A stretch of DNA of 47,801 nt. Source: Thermodesulfobacteriota bacterium (GTDB taxonomy: Bacteria; Desulfobacterota; BSN033; UBA1163). How positions within the stretch are numbered: the first letter of the stretch is position 1; each line of letters begins with the position of its first letter. Where the stretch lies: assembly GCA_030017685.1 (NCBI GenBank), contig JASEHH010000015.1, forward strand, positions 1 to 47,801, read 5' to 3'. The notes beneath the pieces were generated by a model, which worked only from the letters and a program-made list of their open reading frames with translations, made no database searches and was not told where the DNA came from. Positions 9,591-20,760 of the stretch are shown here, in pieces. A program made the translations under genes and the position numbers.

Positions 9591-10742
9591 TCATCGCAAT
9601 GCCTTGACCCCCTGCAAGTCCATCTCTCTTGCCACTACTTCTTTGTGAAAGTTCGTATCCCCAAATGTAATTTCTCCAGCTTTAGCGAATCTAAAATAGA
9701 GATAGAGATCTTGATCCTTTGTAAAGCCAATTGCACCGTAAATCTGGTGGGCTGTTGTTGCTATTTTTTTAAATGCATCACTTGACCATGCCTTAGCCAT
9801 AGCAACTTCTTTCGTCGAAGGATGCCCATTGCTGACCCGCCAGACAGCCTGATGAGTTATAACTTTGGAACATTCCAAATCAATGGCCATATCTGCACAA
9901 TAATGCTGAATCACTTGAAAAGCAGATAGGGGCCGCCCAAATTGACGTCTTTTTTGGGCATAGTCCACTGTCATCTCAAAAACTCTTTGCATCGCTCCCA
10001 GCATTTCACAGCATCTACCTACTACTGCTATCGGCCACACATTTTGGATCAATTTTCCCCCTTGTTTCTCCTCTCCTATCAGATTATTTTGGGGTACATA
10101 AACATCTGTGAAAGTCACATCAAATTGTTTCTGGAGATCAAGGGATATAAGGGGGATAATGTTCATTGTCTCGCTTTTCGCGTCTACAATGAATAGCGAT
10201 ATACCATTTGAATGACCTTGTTGATAGGTTCTTGCAGGACATATGATATAGTCGGCGATATGGGCATAAGGGACGAACATCTTTCTTCCTCGGAGGACAT
10301 AACCATCTGATCTTGGTTCTCCTATGGACTTGATCTCATCGATGGCATAGCTCCCTTCCATTTCTGTCAATGCCATCGTCATTATGATATCCCCCTTGGC
10401 AATGCCAGGCAAAAACCTTTGCTTGAGTTCTTCGTCACCACCCTGCGTAATTGGCACGCCACCCAAAATAACCGTCGAAAAGAATGGCCCAGGGAGGAGA
10501 GCCCTTCCCATCTCTTCCAGAATGATGGACAAATCCAAAAAAGTCCCACCGATACCTCCGTATTTCTCTTCAAACAGTAATCCCATCCATCCGAGCTCAG
10601 CCATTTTTTTCCATAAAGGGGGCGAATGGCCCTTTTCATCCTCGATCATTTCTTTTACAAAATCAATTGGACATTCATTTTTAAGAAATCTCCTTGTTTC
10701 GTTCTTCAAAATGGTTTGCTCTTGGTTTAGCCCAAATTCCAT
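9591..10742 (-). CDS. acyl-CoA dehydrogenase, probable small/beta subunit of a heteromer
   Basis: This 383-residue protein has the acyl-CoA dehydrogenase fold (EKYGGIGGTFLD, RRQFGRPLSAFQVIQHYCADMAID, HQIYGAIGFT). Its C-terminus reads AGEITFGDTNFHKEVVA where homomeric enzymes have the catalytic EGT-EIQ. That FGD-xxxH ending is typical of one subunit of heterotetrameric enzymes such as the mycobacterial steroid side-chain dehydrogenases. The next gene upstream (10792-11970) is a complementary dehydrogenase, 49 bases away in the same operon, so the two probably form one enzyme. A GGAG site precedes the ATG at 10742. The heteromer assignment is inference from motif and adjacency. Confidence 0.88.
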   Translation of the reverse strand: MEFGLNQEQTILKNETRRFLKNECPIDFVKEMIEDEKGHSPPLWKKMAELGWMGLLFEEKYGGIGGTFLDLSIILEEMGRALLPGPFFSTVILGGVPITQGGDEELKQRFLPGIAKGDIIMTMALTEMEGSYAIDEIKSIGEPRSDGYVLRGRKMFVPYAHIADYIICPARTYQQGHSNGISLFIVDAKSETMNIIPLISLDLQKQFDVTFTDVYVPQNNLIGEEKQGGKLIQNVWPIAVVGRCCEMLGAMQRVFEMTVDYAQKRRQFGRPLSAFQVIQHYCADMAIDLECSKVITHQAVWRVSNGHPSTKEVAMAKAWSSDAFKKIATTAHQIYGAIGFTKDQDLYLYFRFAKAGEITFGDTNFHKEVVAREMDLQGVKALR

Positions 10743-10791
10743 CCTCTCGCTCCTTTTTAAAAAAGAGTTCTAATGACACCAATTATCTGCA

Positions 10792-11970
10792 TTATTTAGT
10801 CTGGAGTTTAAGTCCCCTCAATGCAATGATATTTTTAAGTATTTCCACTGTGCCACCTTGCAGAGTATAGGAAGGACTCCACAAATATGATTCTGCAGCA
10901 ACCCCATCATAGGGAGCCCACTTGGAGCCTGGCAAAAGTTGACCATATAATCCCATGATCTGGGTTGCTATGTCACTTAACCTTTTTTCATATTGGGTAC
11001 AAAAAACCTTACATACGGAGGCCTCATAATTTGGAACTTTGCCCTGATCAATGGTCCAGGCCACACTGTAGCACAGAAGTCTTCCAATATTGAACTCTGT
11101 TTCCAGGGTCGAGATAACGTTTCTTATGGTAGGATCTTCCCATAAATATTTACCGTTTTTCTTTGTTGTCTTTACATACTCCAACAAATGTTCCCTTACG
11201 GTATAATTTTGCATAAGTCTCTCGATTCCGGCCCTTTCATAAACCACCTGTTCCATGATCTGATCGAAACCTTTGTCCTGTTTTCCAACGAGGTATTTTT
11301 TGGGTATTCTTACATCATCCAGGAAAACCTCGTTAAAAGAATGGACCTCGGCTATGTTAATGAGCGGTTGAACCGTTACCCCAGGAGCTTTCATATCAAG
11401 AATAAATTCGCTTAAAGTCTTATGGTCTGGCAAATTTGAATCTGGATTTGTTTTGGCCAGAAGCCAACCATAATCAGCTCTGTGTCCCATGGAGGTCCAT
11501 AATTTTTGACCATTGACCAAATAATAATCCCCTTCTTCTACAGCGGTTGTTCTCACAGAGGCCAGGTCGGATCCAGCATCTGGCTCACTGAAACAAAGAC
11601 AGAAAGAGATCTCAGCTTCAATAATTCGCGGTAAAAATTCTCTTTTTAATTCCTCACTACCAAAATGGATCAATGCAGGTCCAACTTGGCGATCAGTTAA
11701 AAAATGAAAGGCTATAGGGGCTTGGGCTCTCAACATCTCCTCCATCAGGATCAATCGGTCCATATAACTCCGACCCTGTCCACCATATTCTTTTGGCCAG
11801 GTTAACCCGATCCAACCTTTTCTGGCCATCTTCCGGGAAAATTCCTGCGAAAATCCTCGTCCCATTGAATTTTGTCTGGGGTCAAAAGACCCTTGTTCTA
11901 ACTCGGATTTAAGAAAATCCTGGACCTCTTCACGAAATCTTTTTTGCTCATCAGTGAAATCAAAATCCAT
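10792..11970 (-). CDS. acyl-CoA dehydrogenase, probable large/alpha subunit of a heteromer
   Basis: This 392-residue acyl-CoA dehydrogenase has FSEPDAGSDLASVRTTA for FAD and substrate binding at about residue 128. Its C-terminus is TLQGGTVEIL, so the usual C-terminal catalytic Glu is replaced by Gly. A Glu at residue 245 (VVYERAGIER) lies where isovaleryl-CoA dehydrogenase-like enzymes place their base. This combination, next to a partner ending FGDTNFH, is the pattern of alpha2beta2 dehydrogenases known for steroid and branched substrates. The start has an AGGAGAG site. It follows the second carboxyltransferase gene by about 150 bases. A bulky or branched acyl-CoA substrate would fit, but that is inference. 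Confidence 0.9.
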   Translation of the reverse strand: MDFDFTDEQKRFREEVQDFLKSELEQGSFDPRQNSMGRGFSQEFSRKMARKGWIGLTWPKEYGGQGRSYMDRLILMEEMLRAQAPIAFHFLTDRQVGPALIHFGSEELKREFLPRIIEAEISFCLCFSEPDAGSDLASVRTTAVEEGDYYLVNGQKLWTSMGHRADYGWLLAKTNPDSNLPDHKTLSEFILDMKAPGVTVQPLINIAEVHSFNEVFLDDVRIPKKYLVGKQDKGFDQIMEQVVYERAGIERLMQNYTVREHLLEYVKTTKKNGKYLWEDPTIRNVISTLETEFNIGRLLCYSVAWTIDQGKVPNYEASVCKVFCTQYEKRLSDIATQIMGLYGQLLPGSKWAPYDGVAAESYLWSPSYTLQGGTVEILKNIIALRGLKLQTK

Positions 11971-12117: not shown

Positions 12118-13710
12118 TTACTGGGGCATAAGGCTATGCTTCCTCCAAGGTCTTAGTGGTAATTGTTTATTGGCCAAGTTTTTCAATGTCCTTATCAGGA
12201 TTGGCCTGGTATCTCGTGGGTCGGTTATGTCATTTACCATCACTTGTTCTGCAGCGTGATATGGATAGTTCATAAAGTTTTTCATTAGCTCTGCGAGCTT
12301 ATCTTGTCGCACCTTTTGAGGTTCTTTTGATGAATCTATTTCCTCTCTGTAAATTATATCCACTGCCTCCTCAGGATTAATTCGCGCAACTCGTGCGCTA
12401 GGCCAGGCGTATGCAAAATCAACTCCCATTCTTAAAGTTCCCATGATCAGTCGAGCGACTCCAAAGTTTTTGCCGACATAAACTGCAATTTTGGGAACAG
12501 TTGCCTCGCAAATAGCAAATGTTGATTTCGGTACTGTTCTGAGTAATCCATCTCTGGATTGCTCTTCCTCCAAATTAGATAAAAATCCTGGGGTATCAAC
12601 AAGGAAAACCAATGGTACGTTAAAAGCGTCGCACCATCTTATGAATCGTGCCTCCTTATCGCAAGTATGAAGGTTCAGAATACCCTCTGACTCGGCGGGG
12701 TTGTTAGCTATAATACCCACCGTTTGCCCGTCAAGACGGGCAAACCCTATTAGGATACTTTTTGCATGAAGTTCCTGTAACTCAAGGAATTGGCCTTTAT
12801 CTACTATGCATCTGATGACTTCATGCATATCGTAATGTTTCAAAGGGTCTTCTGGCACTATTTCCAGAAGGTGATCATCTCTGCGATTCGAATCATCACC
12901 CATGTCAACAATAGGAGGATTTTGTCTATAATTTAGGGGTATGTACGTTACCAGTTCCCGGCATACTTCAATGACTTGCTCGTCGGTGTCAAGAAGGAAG
13001 TCAGCTATTCCTGTCACCGTACTGTGGAGCACTGAACCACCTATTTCCTCATGGGTTACATCTTGATATGTTACCGACTTAAGTAGCTCAGGTGAGGCTA
13101 CTGACATGAAGGCTGTCCCTTTCCTTATAATATAAAAATCAGCCATAGTCGGTGAGTATGCTGACCCCGCATAACTCGGCCCCAGCATGAGGGTGATTTG
13201 AGGAACTACCCCGGAGGCAAGCATTGGTGCATGATACAGAGTGGATGTATCACCGATTGCAGCTCTACCACCGAGCATAGGTCTAAATCCTGGCCTACCA
13301 AAAAGGTCCTGAATCCTTTCCCCACCTGAATCAATCATTTGTATGTATGGGATTCCATTCTCTACAGCCATCTCCATTATTCTTGTTATTTTATGATGAA
13401 AACCACTTCCGAATGTCCCACCAAGAACAGTAAAATCTTCACTGATAGCATAAAAGGGGCGGCCATGTATCTCTCCAAAGCCAGTAATAATTGCATCTCC
13501 GGGAAGTTCTTTTTCATCAATATCAAAGCCTGTTTTGATGGGACGAATCCATAAATCGATTTCCTGAAAAGTCCCCGGATCAAACAGCTTGTCTATCCTT
13601 TCCCTTGCTGTCAGTTTGCCCATTTGATGCTGCCTCTCCACTTGCTTGGAACCACCAGCTTCAAAAAGACGTCTGCGTCGTTCTTCTATTTCTTTAATTT
13701 TATTCAGCAT
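12118..13710 (-). CDS. acyl-CoA carboxyltransferase subunit with altered biotin-side motifs (CT2)
   Basis: This 530-residue protein belongs to the PccB/MmdA/GcdA carboxyltransferase family, which moves a carboxyl group between biotin and an acyl-CoA. The N-terminal CoA-side domain is well kept: FTVLGGTFGSGFHHKI, IDSGGERIQD and GPSYAGSAYSPTMADF (Ala181-Gly182 at the oxyanion position). In the C-terminal biotin-side domain the usual RHGAK reads RTVPK (391-395) and YGGA reads FGVA (416-419), although VDTPGFL and EATVPK remain. It follows a second, differently altered carboxyltransferase by 27 bases. No biotin carboxylase or carrier gene is in the window. A perfect 24-bp palindrome (12722-12745) lies inside the coding region. 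The substrate is unknown. Confidence 0.88.
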   Translation of the reverse strand: MLNKIKEIEERRRRLFEAGGSKQVERQHQMGKLTARERIDKLFDPGTFQEIDLWIRPIKTGFDIDEKELPGDAIITGFGEIHGRPFYAISEDFTVLGGTFGSGFHHKITRIMEMAVENGIPYIQMIDSGGERIQDLFGRPGFRPMLGGRAAIGDTSTLYHAPMLASGVVPQITLMLGPSYAGSAYSPTMADFYIIRKGTAFMSVASPELLKSVTYQDVTHEEIGGSVLHSTVTGIADFLLDTDEQVIEVCRELVTYIPLNYRQNPPIVDMGDDSNRRDDHLLEIVPEDPLKHYDMHEVIRCIVDKGQFLELQELHAKSILIGFARLDGQTVGIIANNPAESEGILNLHTCDKEARFIRWCDAFNVPLVFLVDTPGFLSNLEEEQSRDGLLRTVPKSTFAICEATVPKIAVYVGKNFGVARLIMGTLRMGVDFAYAWPSARVARINPEEAVDIIYREEIDSSKEPQKVRQDKLAELMKNFMNYPYHAAEQVMVNDITDPRDTRPILIRTLKNLANKQLPLRPWRKHSLMPQ

Positions 13711-13737
13711 AATCTTACACCCCTTACTACAATGTGG

Positions 13738-15363
13738 CTATATCCTGAAATTTTCGTGTTTCCTTGATGGCAAATCCTGTTTTCTATTTCTAAGCCACCT
13801 CAAAGCTTTAATAAGAAATGGCCTTGTATCTCGTGGGTCTATGATTTTCTGTGTTGCTTCCCGAACCATCATATCCAAACCCCATTTCAGCTCCATAACC
13901 CGGGTATTTTTTTGCTTCTCTCTAAGGCTTTCATCTGGTATAGACGCGAGCTCACGTCTGTAAATAATAGCTGCTGCCCCCTCGGCACCCATTAGTCCGG
14001 GTTCTTGAGTTGGCCAGGCTACTGCAAGGTCACCACCTAAAGATAATCCAGGCATAGACAAGCGACCTCCTCCATAGTGTTTGCGAATGGTAACTGTGAT
14101 TTGGGGAACAGTTGCTTCGCTATTTGCCATGATCATCCTGGCTCCATGTCTAATCAGTCCTCTTCTCTCTTCCTCAATAGCTGGCAAGAATGCTGGGGTA
14201 TCAGCTATCCAAATTAAAGCTATATTGAAGGCGTTGCAAAATCTAACAAACCGGGACATCTTATCAGCAGCATCAAGGGTCATGCACCCTCCCTTATCTT
14301 GAGGGTTATTGGCTATAATACCGACCGTATATCCATCAAGTCGGGCAAACCCGGTAATCAAATTTCTGGCCCAGTAGTGCTTGATTTCAAAGAATTCACC
14401 ATTATCCACTATCAGTGAAATCAATTTATACATGTCATATGCTTTGGCAGAATTAACAGGAACAATTTCTATGAGTTTTTCCTCCCTGCGATTAGGGTCG
14501 TCCCCAGTATCCACTAAAGGGGGATTTTCCATATTGTGTGACGGTAGATAACTTAGCAATTGACGACATTTCAGTAGGCAATCTTCATCATTCTCAGCAA
14601 ACACATCACAACATCCGGTAACACTGGCATGGACCCAAGGGTCACCCAATTTTTGGCATGTCATACCCGGGGGTGGTGACATGAGATGCATAGAGCTGTT
14701 ATTTTTAGTCATGAAGAGGAAATCCCCTAGTCCTGCAATAATGGATAGCTCCCCCTTACACGGACCCATCACCAAGGAGATTTTGGGTACCACTCCAGAA
14801 GCTAAAGTTTGAAAATACGCTATGGAACTGGCAGAGTAAAAGTCTGGGTATTGTATTGCATCCTGGGCTCTTATACCCTCAGAGTCAAAGATTGCAACTA
14901 CTGGTGTTCGAGCATTAAGAGCGTTCTCTATTATCATAGTTACTTTCCTGGCATGCACAGTACCCATGGTCCCATCCATTACTGTAGCATCTTGCGCCCA
15001 GATACTAACCGGCCGATCATTAACCATACCATAACCTATAACGACCCCGTCCCCTCTGCCTCTATCTTCACCAATATCAAACCCGGTTTCATATGGCCTA
15101 TGGCATGTATCCAACTCCTCAAAGCTATCCTGATCGAAAAGTTTAGCTATCCTCTCCCGCGCTGTCAATTTCCCTTTCTCATGCTGTCTATTAACCGCTT
15201 CTAGATCCCCTTGTTCAATGAGATTCCGCTCTTTATTAAATGCTTCAAGCTTATCACGCATAGTTGATGCGTACCTCGCTTTCAATCCTGCCTCCACAAA
15301 TTCCACAGGGACATTGAAGCGTTTAGCTATTTTTTCAATTTCCTGTTGCTCATTATCCTGCAT
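13738..15363 (-). CDS. acyl-CoA carboxyltransferase subunit with altered CoA-side motifs (CT1)
   Basis: This 541-residue carboxyltransferase-family protein has the reverse pattern to its neighbour. The C-terminal biotin-side motifs are intact: GLIRHGAR (402-409), EATVPQITV and HYGGGRLSM (429-436). On the N-terminal CoA side, the GGxxYSP segment of PccB reads GELSIIA (204-210), in GPCKGELSIIAGLGDF. A GGAGG site precedes the ATG at 15363. It lies directly downstream of the acyl-CoA ligase gene and upstream of CT2, so ligase, CT1 and CT2 form a unit. It may carboxylate or decarboxylate a CoA ester together with CT2 and unlinked biotin proteins; glutaconyl-CoA decarboxylase-type chemistry is also possible. 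Confidence 0.88.
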   Translation of the reverse strand: MQDNEQQEIEKIAKRFNVPVEFVEAGLKARYASTMRDKLEAFNKERNLIEQGDLEAVNRQHEKGKLTARERIAKLFDQDSFEELDTCHRPYETGFDIGEDRGRGDGVVIGYGMVNDRPVSIWAQDATVMDGTMGTVHARKVTMIIENALNARTPVVAIFDSEGIRAQDAIQYPDFYSASSIAYFQTLASGVVPKISLVMGPCKGELSIIAGLGDFLFMTKNNSSMHLMSPPPGMTCQKLGDPWVHASVTGCCDVFAENDEDCLLKCRQLLSYLPSHNMENPPLVDTGDDPNRREEKLIEIVPVNSAKAYDMYKLISLIVDNGEFFEIKHYWARNLITGFARLDGYTVGIIANNPQDKGGCMTLDAADKMSRFVRFCNAFNIALIWIADTPAFLPAIEEERRGLIRHGARMIMANSEATVPQITVTIRKHYGGGRLSMPGLSLGGDLAVAWPTQEPGLMGAEGAAAIIYRRELASIPDESLREKQKNTRVMELKWGLDMMVREATQKIIDPRDTRPFLIKALRWLRNRKQDLPSRKHENFRI

Positions 15364-15438: not shown

Positions 15439-17052
15439 TTATACGTGTTTCTCTTGCGAGCTCATACTCAGATATTTTTCAAGAACGCTCTTTTTAATGA
15501 CCTTGCCCCCTGGATTTCTTGGCAGGTCCGGTAACATGACGATCTTCTGGGGAATCTTATAATACGCCAATTTTTCTTTGCAGAATTCCTGAACTTCCGC
15601 CAGTTGGAGGTTATGAACCCCGGGCCTCGGCACCACGGCACACCCCACACATTCGCCCATGACGGGATCGGGTATGCCAAAGACCGTTACGTCAAGAATC
15701 TTGGGGTGGAGGTGCAAAACATTTTCCACTTCCACCGGATAGACCTTTTCGCCCCCCCGATTGATCATCTCCTTGCTCCTCCCAACCAGGTAGATGAACC
15801 CTTCCTCGTCCTGGTAACCCATGTCTCCGGTGAAAAACCATCCGTCTCGGTAAACACGCTTTGTTTCCTCGACCAATTTATAGTAGCCCTTAGATACCAG
15901 ACCTCCCCTTACCGCCAGTTCGCCAACCTCATTGGCTTTCAGTTCTTTCCCGGAGGAATCCACAAACTTTACCTCCGAACAGAGAGCGGGCCAGCCAACG
16001 GATGTGGGCCGCTGTTCGCAGAATTCGTCCAACAACAGCGTTATAACCGATGCCTCAGTCGAACCATAGCCGTTTAGAAACTGGACATCTTTGAAGATAG
16101 CTTTCATCTCTGCTAAAAGGTCCGGCGCCACGGGGGCTCCGCCATACTTGACCACCTCGATACAGCTTACGTCGTATTTCTGTATGGGGGTTTTATGAAG
16201 GAGAAGCCAGAACATGGTGGGCGTACCGGTAAGAATGTTTATTCTCTCCCGAACAATCAGATCAAGATAGAGGTCCGCATTGAACACAGGAAGGATAAAA
16301 AGGGTCGTGCCGGAAAAAATTGCCCCCATGAGTTGTTCCTGTATGGCCATCACGTGAAACAGGGGGGCAACAAGGATGGTCTTCCTTTTTTCTCGATTTT
16401 TCATGCGCAGGTGATGGTCTGAGTAATAGCCCTGTTTGAAGGCGCTGGTAATAAGATTACGATGGGTGATCATGGTTCCTTTTGAAAATCCAGTGGTCCC
16501 GGAAGTAAACAAAATGAGCGCCACAGAATCCTCATCGATCTCCACAGATGCAACAGGCCCCTCCTCCCGGGGCAGGGTCGTTATCCAATCAGCGTTCAGG
16601 CGTAAGATTTTCTCCGGAAGCGTATCTGGATTAATGTTTTCAATCTTATCGGAAAAAGTCGGCGATAGACACAAAAGTTCGAGGTCGGATATCTTAATTT
16701 GTCGCTCCAGCTCGGGCTTAGTCAAGTGATGGTTAAAGACCACTGCGGTGGCGCCGAGCTGCTGAATCCCCAGAAAACCGATTATGAAATTAATGGAATT
16801 TTCCATTAGTATGCCTACATGATGTCCCTTGCGGATCCCGTATTTTGTCCTCAGCAGGGCGGCCATATGGGTTACCTGCCCCCGTGTTTCACTGAAGGTC
16901 AGCCTTTTTTCGCCTTCTGCCAAGAATGGTTTGTCCCCATAAGTTTTTGCAGATTCCTGGAACATTGCGGGAATGCTTTTAAATCTGTGTTTGAAAGTCT
17001 GAATGGGAAACCCATCCACTTCTACGATCTCTAACGAGAAATCCCGGATCAC
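15439..17052 (-). CDS. AMP-forming acyl-CoA synthetase/ligase
   Basis: This 537-residue adenylate-forming enzyme activates a carboxylic acid with ATP to its CoA thioester and is probably the entry step of the cluster. Visible motifs are the phosphate loop FTSGTTGFSKG, GYGSTEAS, GWFFTGDMGY, the hinge VGRSKEMINRGGEKVYPVEVE and the catalytic Lys in NPGGKVIKK. The start is a GTG at 17052 with AGGAGAT eight bases upstream; no ATG gives a sensible start. A terminator closes the transcript upstream (17105-17140), so the ligase gene begins a new unit that continues into the two carboxyltransferases and the dehydrogenase pair. The acid it uses cannot be read from sequence. Confidence 0.92.
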   Translation of the reverse strand: MIRDFSLEIVEVDGFPIQTFKHRFKSIPAMFQESAKTYGDKPFLAEGEKRLTFSETRGQVTHMAALLRTKYGIRKGHHVGILMENSINFIIGFLGIQQLGATAVVFNHHLTKPELERQIKISDLELLCLSPTFSDKIENINPDTLPEKILRLNADWITTLPREEGPVASVEIDEDSVALILFTSGTTGFSKGTMITHRNLITSAFKQGYYSDHHLRMKNREKRKTILVAPLFHVMAIQEQLMGAIFSGTTLFILPVFNADLYLDLIVRERINILTGTPTMFWLLLHKTPIQKYDVSCIEVVKYGGAPVAPDLLAEMKAIFKDVQFLNGYGSTEASVITLLLDEFCEQRPTSVGWPALCSEVKFVDSSGKELKANEVGELAVRGGLVSKGYYKLVEETKRVYRDGWFFTGDMGYQDEEGFIYLVGRSKEMINRGGEKVYPVEVENVLHLHPKILDVTVFGIPDPVMGECVGCAVVPRPGVHNLQLAEVQEFCKEKLAYYKIPQKIVMLPDLPRNPGGKVIKKSVLEKYLSMSSQEKHV

Positions 17053-17681: not shown

Positions 17682-19694
17682 TTAGGGATCGAGTGGATCC
17701 TTCCCTGCTTCAGAGATTGCCCTTAATTTCCGGGACAGGATTTTTATCGCTTTTAATCGTTTGGCCAGATCAATGGGGAACGTAGGCTTTTGCATAAATA
17801 AAAGGCTTACGAGGATGGCCAAACCCACAAGGTCGGATATCCACCCGGGCTTAATCAGGGCCAGAGCAGCCCCGAAAAACAGGATCCGCTCATGAATTCG
17901 GGTTGGACGGAGCATGCACCCTTGAATCCCACAGGCCAAAGCATAGACACCAATGAAAGCCGTGATCGTCGAGAGGATGATATCCTGCAGATCCCCTTTC
18001 AGGAGTAGAGCATTATTGTAAACGAACATGTAGGGAAGGATGTAGACTACCAACCCCAAGCGGCAAGCCATCCAGGCTGTGCGCATCATCTCGGCCCCTG
18101 CGATTCCGGCAGCCACGAAGGGTCCAGGGGCCACCGGCGGGGTAAGATCGGAGACTAAGGCAAAAAAGAAAATAAATAAATGAGCTGCAAGGGGATCCAC
18201 CCCCATTTGGGTCAAAGCGGGGGCGACGAGAACGGCCAGGACTAAGTAGGATACGATGATGGGAAGTCCCAGGCCCAGAATGAGGGAAGCGATCATCGTC
18301 AGGAACAAGAGCAAAAATAGTGAATTGCCGGAAAGTTCGATGAGAATCGAAGAGAGCTGTAATCCCAAACCGGTCAATGTAATCATTCCCACCAGGATGT
18401 TACAAGCCACGACGATCCCCACAATGGGCAGAAATCCCAGAGCCCCCCGTTCTAAGGCGCGGAGGATTTTTCGTGGACCCATGCGGGTTGACTTTCGCAA
18501 AAAAGAGGCCAAGGGGACGGAAATGATGGCCCAGAAGGCCGCCCGGGTTTCCGTAACATGGGCATACATGAGAAGATAGACCAGAACCGCCGGGGGAATG
18601 ATGAAATGGAATCCCTGCTTAAATACTTCCCTAAATTTCGGACATTCAGACTTGGGTTGCCCTTTGAGGTTACATTTTACCGCTTCAAAATCCACGATGA
18701 AGAAAATGGCCACGTAATAGAGAATGGCCGAAAGGAAAGCGGCTTTACAGATGGAAACATAGGAAACCCCAAGAACTTCCATCATGATGAAGACCGACCC
18801 TCCCATGACCGGTGGCATGAACTGGCCGCCAACCGATGAAGCAGACTCCACTGCCCCGGCGAAATGGGGTTTGTAACCAGCTCTCTTCATCATGGGGATG
18901 GTAATCTGCCCGCTCGCTGAAACGTTGGCCAAGGCGCTGCCGGAGATCATGCCAAATAAGGAACTGGCTACGACCGCAATTTTGGCTGGTCCTCCACGGA
19001 CATGGCCGAAGAGGCTCGAGGCCAGGCCGAAGAAAAAATTTCCAGCTCCGGACTCCTGCATGAAGGTTCCAAAAAGGATGAAGAGAAAGATAAAGGTAGC
19101 GGCAATTCCGGTCAGAGACCCATAGATTCCTTCGGTCGTCATAAATAGGCCGCTGATGATGCGCTCAACAGAATAATTCGGATGGCCCAAGACAACCGGA
19201 AGCCACTCCCCGAACCGGGCATAGATGAGCGAGCCAATACAGAAAAGGGGCACAGCCCATCCCGTGGTCCGGCGGCTCGCCTCCAGGGATAAGACGATGA
19301 GGGTTCCCCCGATAATCAATTCATACAGGGGCGTCTCGAGGCCGACCGTACCAGCCCTGGCGATAAAATGAGTCCACACGTAATAGCTGATGTAGAGAAT
19401 AAGGCCCACAAAGAGATATCCGTCCCAGCTCAGGCGATCTTTTCTCTGCTTCGGGGAGAAGGGAAAAAGTAGGTAGATGAGGCTGAATCCAAAGATTAAA
19501 TGGATGATTCTCTGGTACATGGCAATGAGGGGAAAGTAGCCCGTAATGAGCTGAAAGAGGGAAAAACTGATGGCGATGACCGCAATCAGTTTTCCCTCAA
19601 TCCCCTTGGGCTTCCGGCGGACACTCTCCTCCTGCGCTATAACAACTTCCTCCCCAGCCGCCAGTTTCTGCTCAATATCCGAATCATTCTTCAT
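17682..19694 (-). CDS. TRAP transporter permease, fused small and large membrane subunits
   Basis: This 670-residue membrane protein is the fused DctQM-type permease that pairs with TAXI receptors and uses an ion gradient to import carboxylates. The N-terminal 170 residues hold several membrane helices (the DctQ-like part). The DctM-like part follows, with runs such as IAATFIFLFILFGTFMQESGAG, GGPAKIAVVASSLFGMISGSA and LILGLGLPIIVSYLVLAVL. GGAGGG lies nine bases before the ATG at 19694. The receptor gene lies directly upstream and an unknown secreted protein directly downstream. TAXI systems have been linked to glutamate and other dicarboxylates; the substrate here is unknown but is likely to feed the CoA ligase. 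Confidence 0.93.
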   Translation of the reverse strand: MKNDSDIEQKLAAGEEVVIAQEESVRRKPKGIEGKLIAVIAISFSLFQLITGYFPLIAMYQRIIHLIFGFSLIYLLFPFSPKQRKDRLSWDGYLFVGLILYISYYVWTHFIARAGTVGLETPLYELIIGGTLIVLSLEASRRTTGWAVPLFCIGSLIYARFGEWLPVVLGHPNYSVERIISGLFMTTEGIYGSLTGIAATFIFLFILFGTFMQESGAGNFFFGLASSLFGHVRGGPAKIAVVASSLFGMISGSALANVSASGQITIPMMKRAGYKPHFAGAVESASSVGGQFMPPVMGGSVFIMMEVLGVSYVSICKAAFLSAILYYVAIFFIVDFEAVKCNLKGQPKSECPKFREVFKQGFHFIIPPAVLVYLLMYAHVTETRAAFWAIISVPLASFLRKSTRMGPRKILRALERGALGFLPIVGIVVACNILVGMITLTGLGLQLSSILIELSGNSLFLLLFLTMIASLILGLGLPIIVSYLVLAVLVAPALTQMGVDPLAAHLFIFFFALVSDLTPPVAPGPFVAAGIAGAEMMRTAWMACRLGLVVYILPYMFVYNNALLLKGDLQDIILSTITAFIGVYALACGIQGCMLRPTRIHERILFFGAALALIKPGWISDLVGLAILVSLLFMQKPTFPIDLAKRLKAIKILSRKLRAISEAGKDPLDP

Positions 19695-19767
19695 TCAGCA
19701 TTCCCTCCAGAAGATTCTTATTGCTGTTGATCATTTTCCGAATTTACAGGCCAGGCCTTCCTCAAGA

Positions 19768-20760
19768 TTACCGTCCTTTCCAAACCCCTTTCTCCTTGAG
19801 GTATTTGACCGCACCCGGATGGAAAGGAATGTGCTGGGTCGTATAATTCGCTCCCAGGAACATATTCTCCAAATTCCATTGCGCAGCCTGGGGATGAATG
19901 GCACCAATCTCTCCGGGGTGGTCGTAGATTGCTTTAACCAATTGATAAGCCAAACTCTCGCTTAAGTCTTGACGACAAAACAGGGCGGTCTGCACTCCCG
20001 CTGACAGAGTATCCGTGTCGATCCCCGGATAAGTCCCTTTCGGGATGATCGCCCTTACATGATAGGGGTATTTGGTGGTGAGCGTTTTTATCTCCTCTTC
20101 AGTGTGAGAGATCAAGCGGATCGGATGGGCCCGGGTCAATTCGAGGACACTGGCGACAGGATAGCCGGCAGCGATGGTCCCCACTTCTACGGTCTTATCC
20201 TTTAACGCGGTGATACTTTCCGTGAAGGAAAGGTAGGCCGGCTTGAAATCGTCAAAGGGCAAACCACAGACCTCCGTCAAGGCGACCCTGGAGGCCACCA
20301 GAGTTCCACTCCCGGGAGGCCCAACCGCAACTTTACGACCTCTAAAGTCGGATACGGATTGAACCGGCGACTCTCTCCGCACCATCCAGTGCCGCACGCT
20401 GACATGTCCTAAGGCCAGCAGACGAACTCCAGATAAATCCATCTTTTTCTCCAGCGCCGGTGCCAGCACATTTATGGCGACCAGGCCGAGATCCATCTTC
20501 TTCCGCAAGATTAAATGGAAGTTTTCCTCCGAGGCCGCGGTCGATTCTGCGATCACGCGAACTTCTGGTACGTATTTGTTACAAATGCTGGCAAACCCCG
20601 CCCCAATGAAATAAAAAGTGCCCGCAGGGCTGCCCGTTCCCAAAGAGAGATATTTTTTGGCTGCTACGGATGCCCCCAAGGGGAAAAGAATTCCAAAAAA
20701 AAGTAGAATCACCAGTGTCAAAGTCCCAAAACTAACTTTACCATTTTGTCGAGTAGACAT
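19768..20760 (-). CDS. TAXI-family TRAP transporter solute receptor
   Basis: This 330-residue periplasmic receptor delivers a solute to the fused permease encoded 73 bases downstream. It has an N-terminal signal segment (LTLVILLFFGILFPLGASVAA) and the family opening YLSLGTGSPAGTFYFIGAGFASICN. VAVGPPGSGTLVASRVALTEVCGL also fits the TAXI family. An AGGAGG site lies before the ATG at 20760. The gene is divergent from the Lrp/AsnC regulator across a 328-base region that contains a TTCGTCA inverted repeat, so that regulator is a reasonable candidate to control it. Confidence 0.93.
   Translation of the reverse strand: MSTRQNGKVSFGTLTLVILLFFGILFPLGASVAAKKYLSLGTGSPAGTFYFIGAGFASICNKYVPEVRVIAESTAASEENFHLILRKKMDLGLVAINVLAPALEKKMDLSGVRLLALGHVSVRHWMVRRESPVQSVSDFRGRKVAVGPPGSGTLVASRVALTEVCGLPFDDFKPAYLSFTESITALKDKTVEVGTIAAGYPVASVLELTRAHPIRLISHTEEEIKTLTTKYPYHVRAIIPKGTYPGIDTDTLSAGVQTALFCRQDLSESLAYQLVKAIYDHPGEIGAIHPQAAQWNLENMFLGANYTTQHIPFHPGAVKYLKEKGVWKGR

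Follow-up and report, generated by a model that had tools for sequence, protein, structure and literature searches.

A tandem pair of full-length PccB-type carboxyltransferases with complementary loss of active-site segments in a Thermodesulfobacteriota bacterium

The CT1-CT2 gene pair and its protein family

Two carboxyltransferase genes of the PccB type are encoded in tandem on the minus strand of the window, by which we refer to the entire stretch of 47,801 nucleotides that was analyzed. The two open reading frames share the same frame and are separated by only 27 nt. CT1 (positions 13738-15363) specifies a full-length protein of 541 amino acids, and CT2 (12118-13710) a full-length protein of 530 amino acids. 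Upstream of CT1, the gene for an AMP-forming acyl-CoA ligase (15439-17052, minus strand) is a probable member of the same operon, and the genes for a TAXI-TRAP uptake system (17682-20760, minus strand) encode a DctM permease (17682-19694) and a TAXI/NMT1-type binding protein (19768-20760). Downstream of CT2 lies a pair of acyl-CoA dehydrogenase genes (9591-11970, minus strand), one PimC-like (10792-11970) and the other PimD-like (9591-10742). The operon further includes genes for beta-oxidation enzymes.

Both proteins are full-length matches to the Pfam family Carboxyl_trans (PF01039), with scores of 414 bits (CT1) and 404 bits (CT2) in the genome search. When assessed by hmmscan, the scores were 417 bits for CT1, covering profile positions 1-493, and 407 bits for CT2, covering positions 1-491 of this model, which is 493 positions long. 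The MmdA model TIGR01117 matched both CT1 (508.7 bits) and CT2 (513 bits) below its curated cut-off of 998.8. Matches to the equivalog models for accD (59.6 and 44.8 bits for CT1 and CT2, respectively) and accA (21.5 and 25.1 bits) lie far under the respective cut-offs. The identity of CT1 and CT2 to ordinary PccB homologues is about 40%. AlphaFold models of CT1 and CT2, calculated from shallow alignments of five or six sequences, had mean pLDDT values of 38 and 41 and pTM values of 0.25 and 0.43, respectively, and were left unused.

Complementary alterations in the two halves of the active site

In PccB, the N domain of one subunit holds the acyl-CoA enolate, and the biotin carbonyl is bound by the C domain of the other subunit of the dimer. 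We number residues according to the Streptomyces coelicolor protein (chain 3ib9), in which counting places the two relevant segments at G182-G183 and G419-A420; these are reported to be the oxyanion residues (Diacovich et al. 2004). All motif coordinates given below refer to the minus strand and were confirmed by translation.

In CT1, the oxyanion segment of the CoA side is lost: it reads GPCKGELSIIA (14734-14766) and carries the replacements G183 to E, Y186 to I, and P188 to A. The DSGG motif of ordinary PccB proteins is present as DSEG (14875-14886), a G142 to E exchange that is found in 20/24 CT1 sequences. On the biotin side of CT1, both the RHGA segment (14140-14151) and the oxyanion segment RKHYGGG (14065-14085) are retained. 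CT2 possesses the opposite pattern: DSGG (13321-13332) and the CoA-side oxyanion segment GPSYAGSAYSP (13150-13182) are kept, H393 and G394 are lost in RTVPK (12526-12540), and G419 is replaced by V in GKNFGVA (12454-12474). The earlier note on this DNA had read the two proteins in this way, with GELSIIA as the altered CoA side of a CT1 that keeps RHGA and YGGG, and RTVPK and FGVA as the altered biotin side of a CT2 that keeps AGSAYSP. HMMER alignments to PDB chains confirm both readings and agree with the gap-free alignment to PccB across the altered segments from which they were derived. On the CoA side, these alignments set GPCKGELSIIA of CT1 and GPSYAGSAYSP of CT2 opposite GPCAGGAVYSP; on the biotin side, they set LIRHG/RKHYGGG of CT1 and LLRTVPK/GKNFGVA of CT2 opposite IIRHGAK/RKAYGGA.

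The complementary losses are fixed throughout the two clades, as residue counts over 24 CT1 proteins, 20 CT2 proteins, 4 single-copy relatives and 43 ordinary PccB rows demonstrate. Position 183 is occupied by E, D, P or S in all CT1 proteins (Gly in 0/24) and by Gly in 20/20 CT2 proteins; Y186 and P188 are likewise present in none of the 24 CT1 and in each of the 20 CT2 sequences. Conversely, G419 is a Gly in 24/24 CT1 and 0/20 CT2 proteins, and H393-G394 is kept in 24/24 CT1 proteins, with Gly at position 394 in just 2/20 CT2 proteins. Every one of these scored residues is kept in the four single-copy relatives. Chance differences in the motifs were considered and excluded, since the states are fixed in 24/24 CT1 and 20/20 CT2 proteins and occur in 0/4 of the unduplicated relatives. 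The exchange of G182 for A, which gives CT2 its AG in place of GG, is also present in the single-copy relatives; it therefore predates the split and does not represent a loss. A scan of the columns that are invariant in the reference set revealed further losses in the N domain of CT1 (positions 126 and 241) and in the C domain of CT2 (the glutamate of WPTxE and several glycines). Some losses fit this scheme poorly: the C-terminal Y...PY..A residues are lost in CT1 and, with the exception of the first Y, kept in CT2.

Distribution and phylogeny of the pair

A contig scan recovered six loci, all from Chloroflexota MAGs, with 55-73% identity to CT1. A full CT2 gene immediately follows CT1 in four of them (L037, L038, L039 and L041); CT2 is broken in L040, and its copy in L042 is masked. 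About 20 additional genomes or gene copies carry the pair, and nearly all of them are from Chloroflexota (Dehalococcoidia). Among 393 sampled genomes of the class to which the Chloroflexota relatives belong, 17 had a CT1 orthologue, and exactly these 17 also had a CT2 orthologue; in G102, the CT2 copy is broken by a stop codon. An eighteenth CT1 match (G131) is a single gene that is about equally close to CT1 and CT2. CT1 and CT2 reside on separate contigs, at or near contig ends, in G162 and G308. A sample of 400 genomes from the whole phylum Chloroflexota gave a match only in G099 itself. In the phylum of the window genome, the pair is present in one other genome (G592, locus L107), and single intact relatives are present in three (G506, G585 and G630). 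The expectation that CT1 and CT2 homologues always occur together is thus borne out by these 17 of 393 genomes and by the loci L037, L038 and L107. Neither protein was found alone in the sampled genomes, and the single-copy relatives (L108, L109, L110 and L132) are intact on both sides of the active site.

Two gene arrangements depart from the simple tandem. A second CT1 gene is located beside genes for a biotin carrier and a biotin carboxylase in G286, G210 and G308 (L120:2306-3853, L123:7496-9043 and L126:8526-10073), and one CT2 gene was detected in each of these genomes; this suggests that a single CT2 protein may pair with both CT1 copies. On a Dehalococcoidia chromosome (L127:8012-11798), CT1 and CT2 are convergent, and a 3' remnant of CT1 containing Ns adjoins CT2. 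This arrangement may reflect an inversion, a gene remnant or a fault of the assembly.

We built a phylogenetic tree from an alignment from which the four motif blocks had been removed. CT1 (24 rows; support 100/95), CT2 (19 rows; 100/99) and the intact single-copy proteins (100/99) each form a clade, and the three clades nest within one clade that is separate from ordinary PccB proteins. The divergent row L131_78 is unplaced in the tree; a CT2 clade of 20 rows that includes it was not rejected (p-AU 0.37). Since both the ordinary PccB proteins and the single-copy proteins are intact, the losses in CT1 and CT2 are derived. The tree fits one ancient duplication that was followed by complementary loss. 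The mirror trees of CT1 and CT2 correlate with a Mantel r of 0.94, a value that the common history of the organisms also predicts.

None of nine genus mates of the window genome possesses CT1. Mis-binning of the contig was ruled out by conservation and by its RuvB protein, which is 98% identical to the RuvB of a genus mate; the window contig is native. Since the contig is native and the nine genus mates lack CT1, the pair was probably gained by transfer.

Genomic context and the probable reaction

A stand-alone biotin carrier is encoded beside the pair in L037, L111, L112, L119 and other loci, accompanied in part of the lineages by a biotin carboxylase, and the CT1-CT2 enzyme is therefore probably biotin-dependent. 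L112 and L119 contain an uninterrupted run of CT1, CT2, a biotin carrier of 70 residues with a QSMKM motif, and a biotin carboxylase; in L037 and L111, the biotin carrier gene is next to the pair without that for the carboxylase. A gene for an OAD_beta/MadB-like carboxybiotin decarboxylase is located directly upstream of CT1-CT2 in L117. The window itself contains neither a biotin carrier gene nor a pump gene. The window genome (G000) encodes two small biotin carriers (PF00364), both on other contigs, and an OAD_beta protein (PF03977) on contig C241, whose partnership with CT1-CT2 is putative.

No biotin carboxylase (PF02785) was detected in the window genome, whose assembly is 92% complete, or in six of the seven genus mates that were searched, while OAD_beta is present in the window genome and in all seven mates (8/8). 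The lack of a detectable biotin carboxylase together with the presence of the pump makes a decarboxylation that drives Na+ export more likely than carboxylation, with odds that we put at roughly two to one. CT1-CT2 thus probably acts as a decarboxylase in the window genome, a direction that rests on the content of this genome and on that of its relatives. The adjacent ligase and dehydrogenases would make a dicarboxylyl-type CoA ester as the substrate of the pair; CT1-CT2 would decarboxylate this ester and pass the carboxyl group on to the Na+ pump. It is possible, but the less probable reading, that CT1-CT2 operates as a carboxylase here and that the biotin carboxylase was missed in the incomplete assembly. 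In line with this, the group II relatives have a biotin carboxylase gene adjoining the pair and one of the seven genus mates possesses such a gene; the consistent absence of PF02785 from the other six mates, all of which encode OAD_beta, speaks against it. Either direction of the reaction is compatible with a CT1-CT2 heteromer.

The TRAP gene set of the window also adjoins the single-copy carboxyltransferase gene in L108 and L109, and that of L108 is, in addition, accompanied by a PimC/PimD-like dehydrogenase pair. This context suggests that CT1-CT2 replaced a single enzyme of the same pathway.

Several further observations concern the metabolic surroundings. In the two dehydrogenases of the window (9591-11970), the glutamate of the YEGT motif that is usual close to the C terminus is missing (the sequences read LQGGT and FGDT), and the two proteins may represent a second pair that shares one site. 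PF02785 was not detected in the window genome or its mates G001, G003-G005, G008 and G009: matches of the size of AccA and AccD are present without AccC, and the window genome has carboxyltransferase genes, biotin carriers of about 70 amino acids and OAD_beta. In two distant genomes, a gene for a PFL-like glycyl radical enzyme that scores below every named equivalog cut-off adjoins the pair (L107:10445-12898 and L118:7883-10339). Genes for a CoA-transferase and two HGD-D proteins (2-hydroxyacyl-CoA dehydratase family) are found beside CT1-CT2 in L124 (10187-14485), a set that resembles that of the glutaconyl-CoA route.

A probable heteromer with one composite active site

We consider it likely, with a probability of about 0.78, that CT1 and CT2 descend from one old duplication of a PccB/MmdA-type gene and that the two proteins are today obligate partners in a heteromer whose dimers each contain a single working composite site. 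From the surviving residues it follows that only a CT1-CT2 dimer would possess a complete site, and exactly one: the N domain of CT2 would complete it with the C domain of CT1, the N domain of CT1 and the C domain of CT2 would together form a site that is degenerate on both sides, and a homodimer of either protein would have no complete site at all. We infer the heteromer, its one-site stoichiometry and its reaction from sequence comparisons, and on these grounds the overall interpretation of the earlier note is supported. Several points weigh against this reading. The oxyanion contacts are made by backbone NH groups, so that a change of G to E or V need not abolish them; the altered N-site of CT1 is fairly conserved (E205 is present in 18/24 CT1 proteins), which could mean that a function was kept; and the asymmetry of domain rates expected under complementary decay has the right direction but is weak (log ratio 0.155, SE 0.110).

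The conservation of the CT1 replacements (G183 to E or D in 20/24, P188 to A in 22/24, and, from the scan of reference-invariant columns, an N-domain Gly to D or E in 21/24 proteins) is what would be expected if the second site, formed by the N domain of CT1 and the C domain of CT2, had been rebuilt with acidic residues to bind a regulator, to dock the biotin carrier or to catalyze a second reaction. We regard such a rebuilt site as unlikely, since the half contributed by CT2 is far less conserved (entropy of the C-domain motifs 1.21, compared to 0.76 in CT1) and resembles decay. If it were true, the pair would represent a new class of heteromeric carboxyltransferases in which each dimer has a catalytic half and a second half that controls it.

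Even less probable are mixed hexamers of the AccD4/AccD5 kind, in which each subunit would have its own working sites and the altered residues would reflect different substrates. Mixed carboxyltransferase complexes are known from mycobacteria, represented by PDB sets such as 9t97 (with 24 D5 and 12 D4 chains over the same six entries), and the CT1-CT2 pair is seen in both carboxylase-like and decarboxylase-like contexts. However, the changes affect GG and YGG glycines that are nearly invariant in ordinary PccB proteins whatever their substrate (G183 in 42/43 and G419 in 43/43 rows). That CT1, CT2 or both are decaying pseudogenes or assembly artefacts can practically be dismissed: catalytic residues are indeed missing, but almost all of the roughly twenty divergent genomes retain open full-length frames, each clade shows one fixed pattern, and conservation over the whole domain is similar to that of ordinary PccB proteins.

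The CT1-CT2 pair provides a clean natural case of a duplication followed by complementary loss within one active site, with the intact single-copy relatives, the duplicates and the fixed losses all readable in living genomes. Judged from their sequences, the two genes probably must work together, and some twenty other bacterial genomes show the same conserved split. It would account for the side-by-side PccB-like genes of some Dehalococcoidia, both of which automatic annotation likely calls complete enzymes, and it would permit a direct test of whether dimers of the PccB type need both of their sites. Searches of the open-access literature yielded no description of a carboxyltransferase pair with complementary loss of half-sites, which is weak evidence of novelty.

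Comparison with known carboxyltransferase systems

The homohexameric PccB and MmdA enzymes (propionyl-CoA carboxylase beta and methylmalonyl-CoA decarboxylase alpha subunits; PDB 1xny, 1x0u and 1vrg) belong to the same family as CT1 and CT2 and likewise consist of a single PF01039 domain over their full length. Each of their chains carries both half-sites, whereas the half-sites of CT1-CT2 survive in different chains.

The comparison with AccD/AccA that was drawn in the earlier note is apt in principle, and MdcD/MdcE (and MadC/MadD) as well as AccD4/AccD5 are also comparable by analogy. In bacterial acetyl-CoA carboxylase, the N-type (CoA) function of AccD and the C-type (biotin) function of AccA are distributed over two polypeptides, as would be the case in CT1-CT2, and the gene set is matched in some relatives by the run of two carboxyltransferases, biotin carrier and biotin carboxylase. 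AccD and AccA each correspond to one half of the carboxyltransferase domain, while CT1 and CT2 both span the entire domain and are altered in one half; the pair would thus represent another route to the same type of labor division. In malonate decarboxylase, the MdcD-MdcE structure shows a heteromeric carboxyltransferase whose single active site lies between the two subunits of the heterodimer (PMC5534430). MdcD/MdcE and MadC/MadD resemble the proposed CT1-CT2 enzyme in being heteromeric, and a MadB-like gene immediately precedes the pair in L117; they differ from it in that their subunits are split domains rather than full-length duplicates, and MdcD-MdcE acts on malonyl attached to a carrier protein and does not use biotin. 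CT1-CT2 belongs to neither AccD/AccA nor MdcD/MdcE, since its subunits are full length and fail the models of these proteins.

In heterotetrameric acyl-CoA dehydrogenases of the ChsE and PimC/PimD type, duplicated subunits form one working site per heterodimer. Their fold and chemistry are unrelated to those of CT1-CT2, but such a pair adjoins CT2 in the operon of the window. The nearest heteromer of full-length chains is AccD4/AccD5, for which we know of no complementary half-site loss. Here, two full-length chains of the PccB type are present in one complex (PDB 9t97), and the interaction of AccD4 with AccD5 has been described for the mycobacterial long-chain acyl-CoA carboxylase (PMC4347857).
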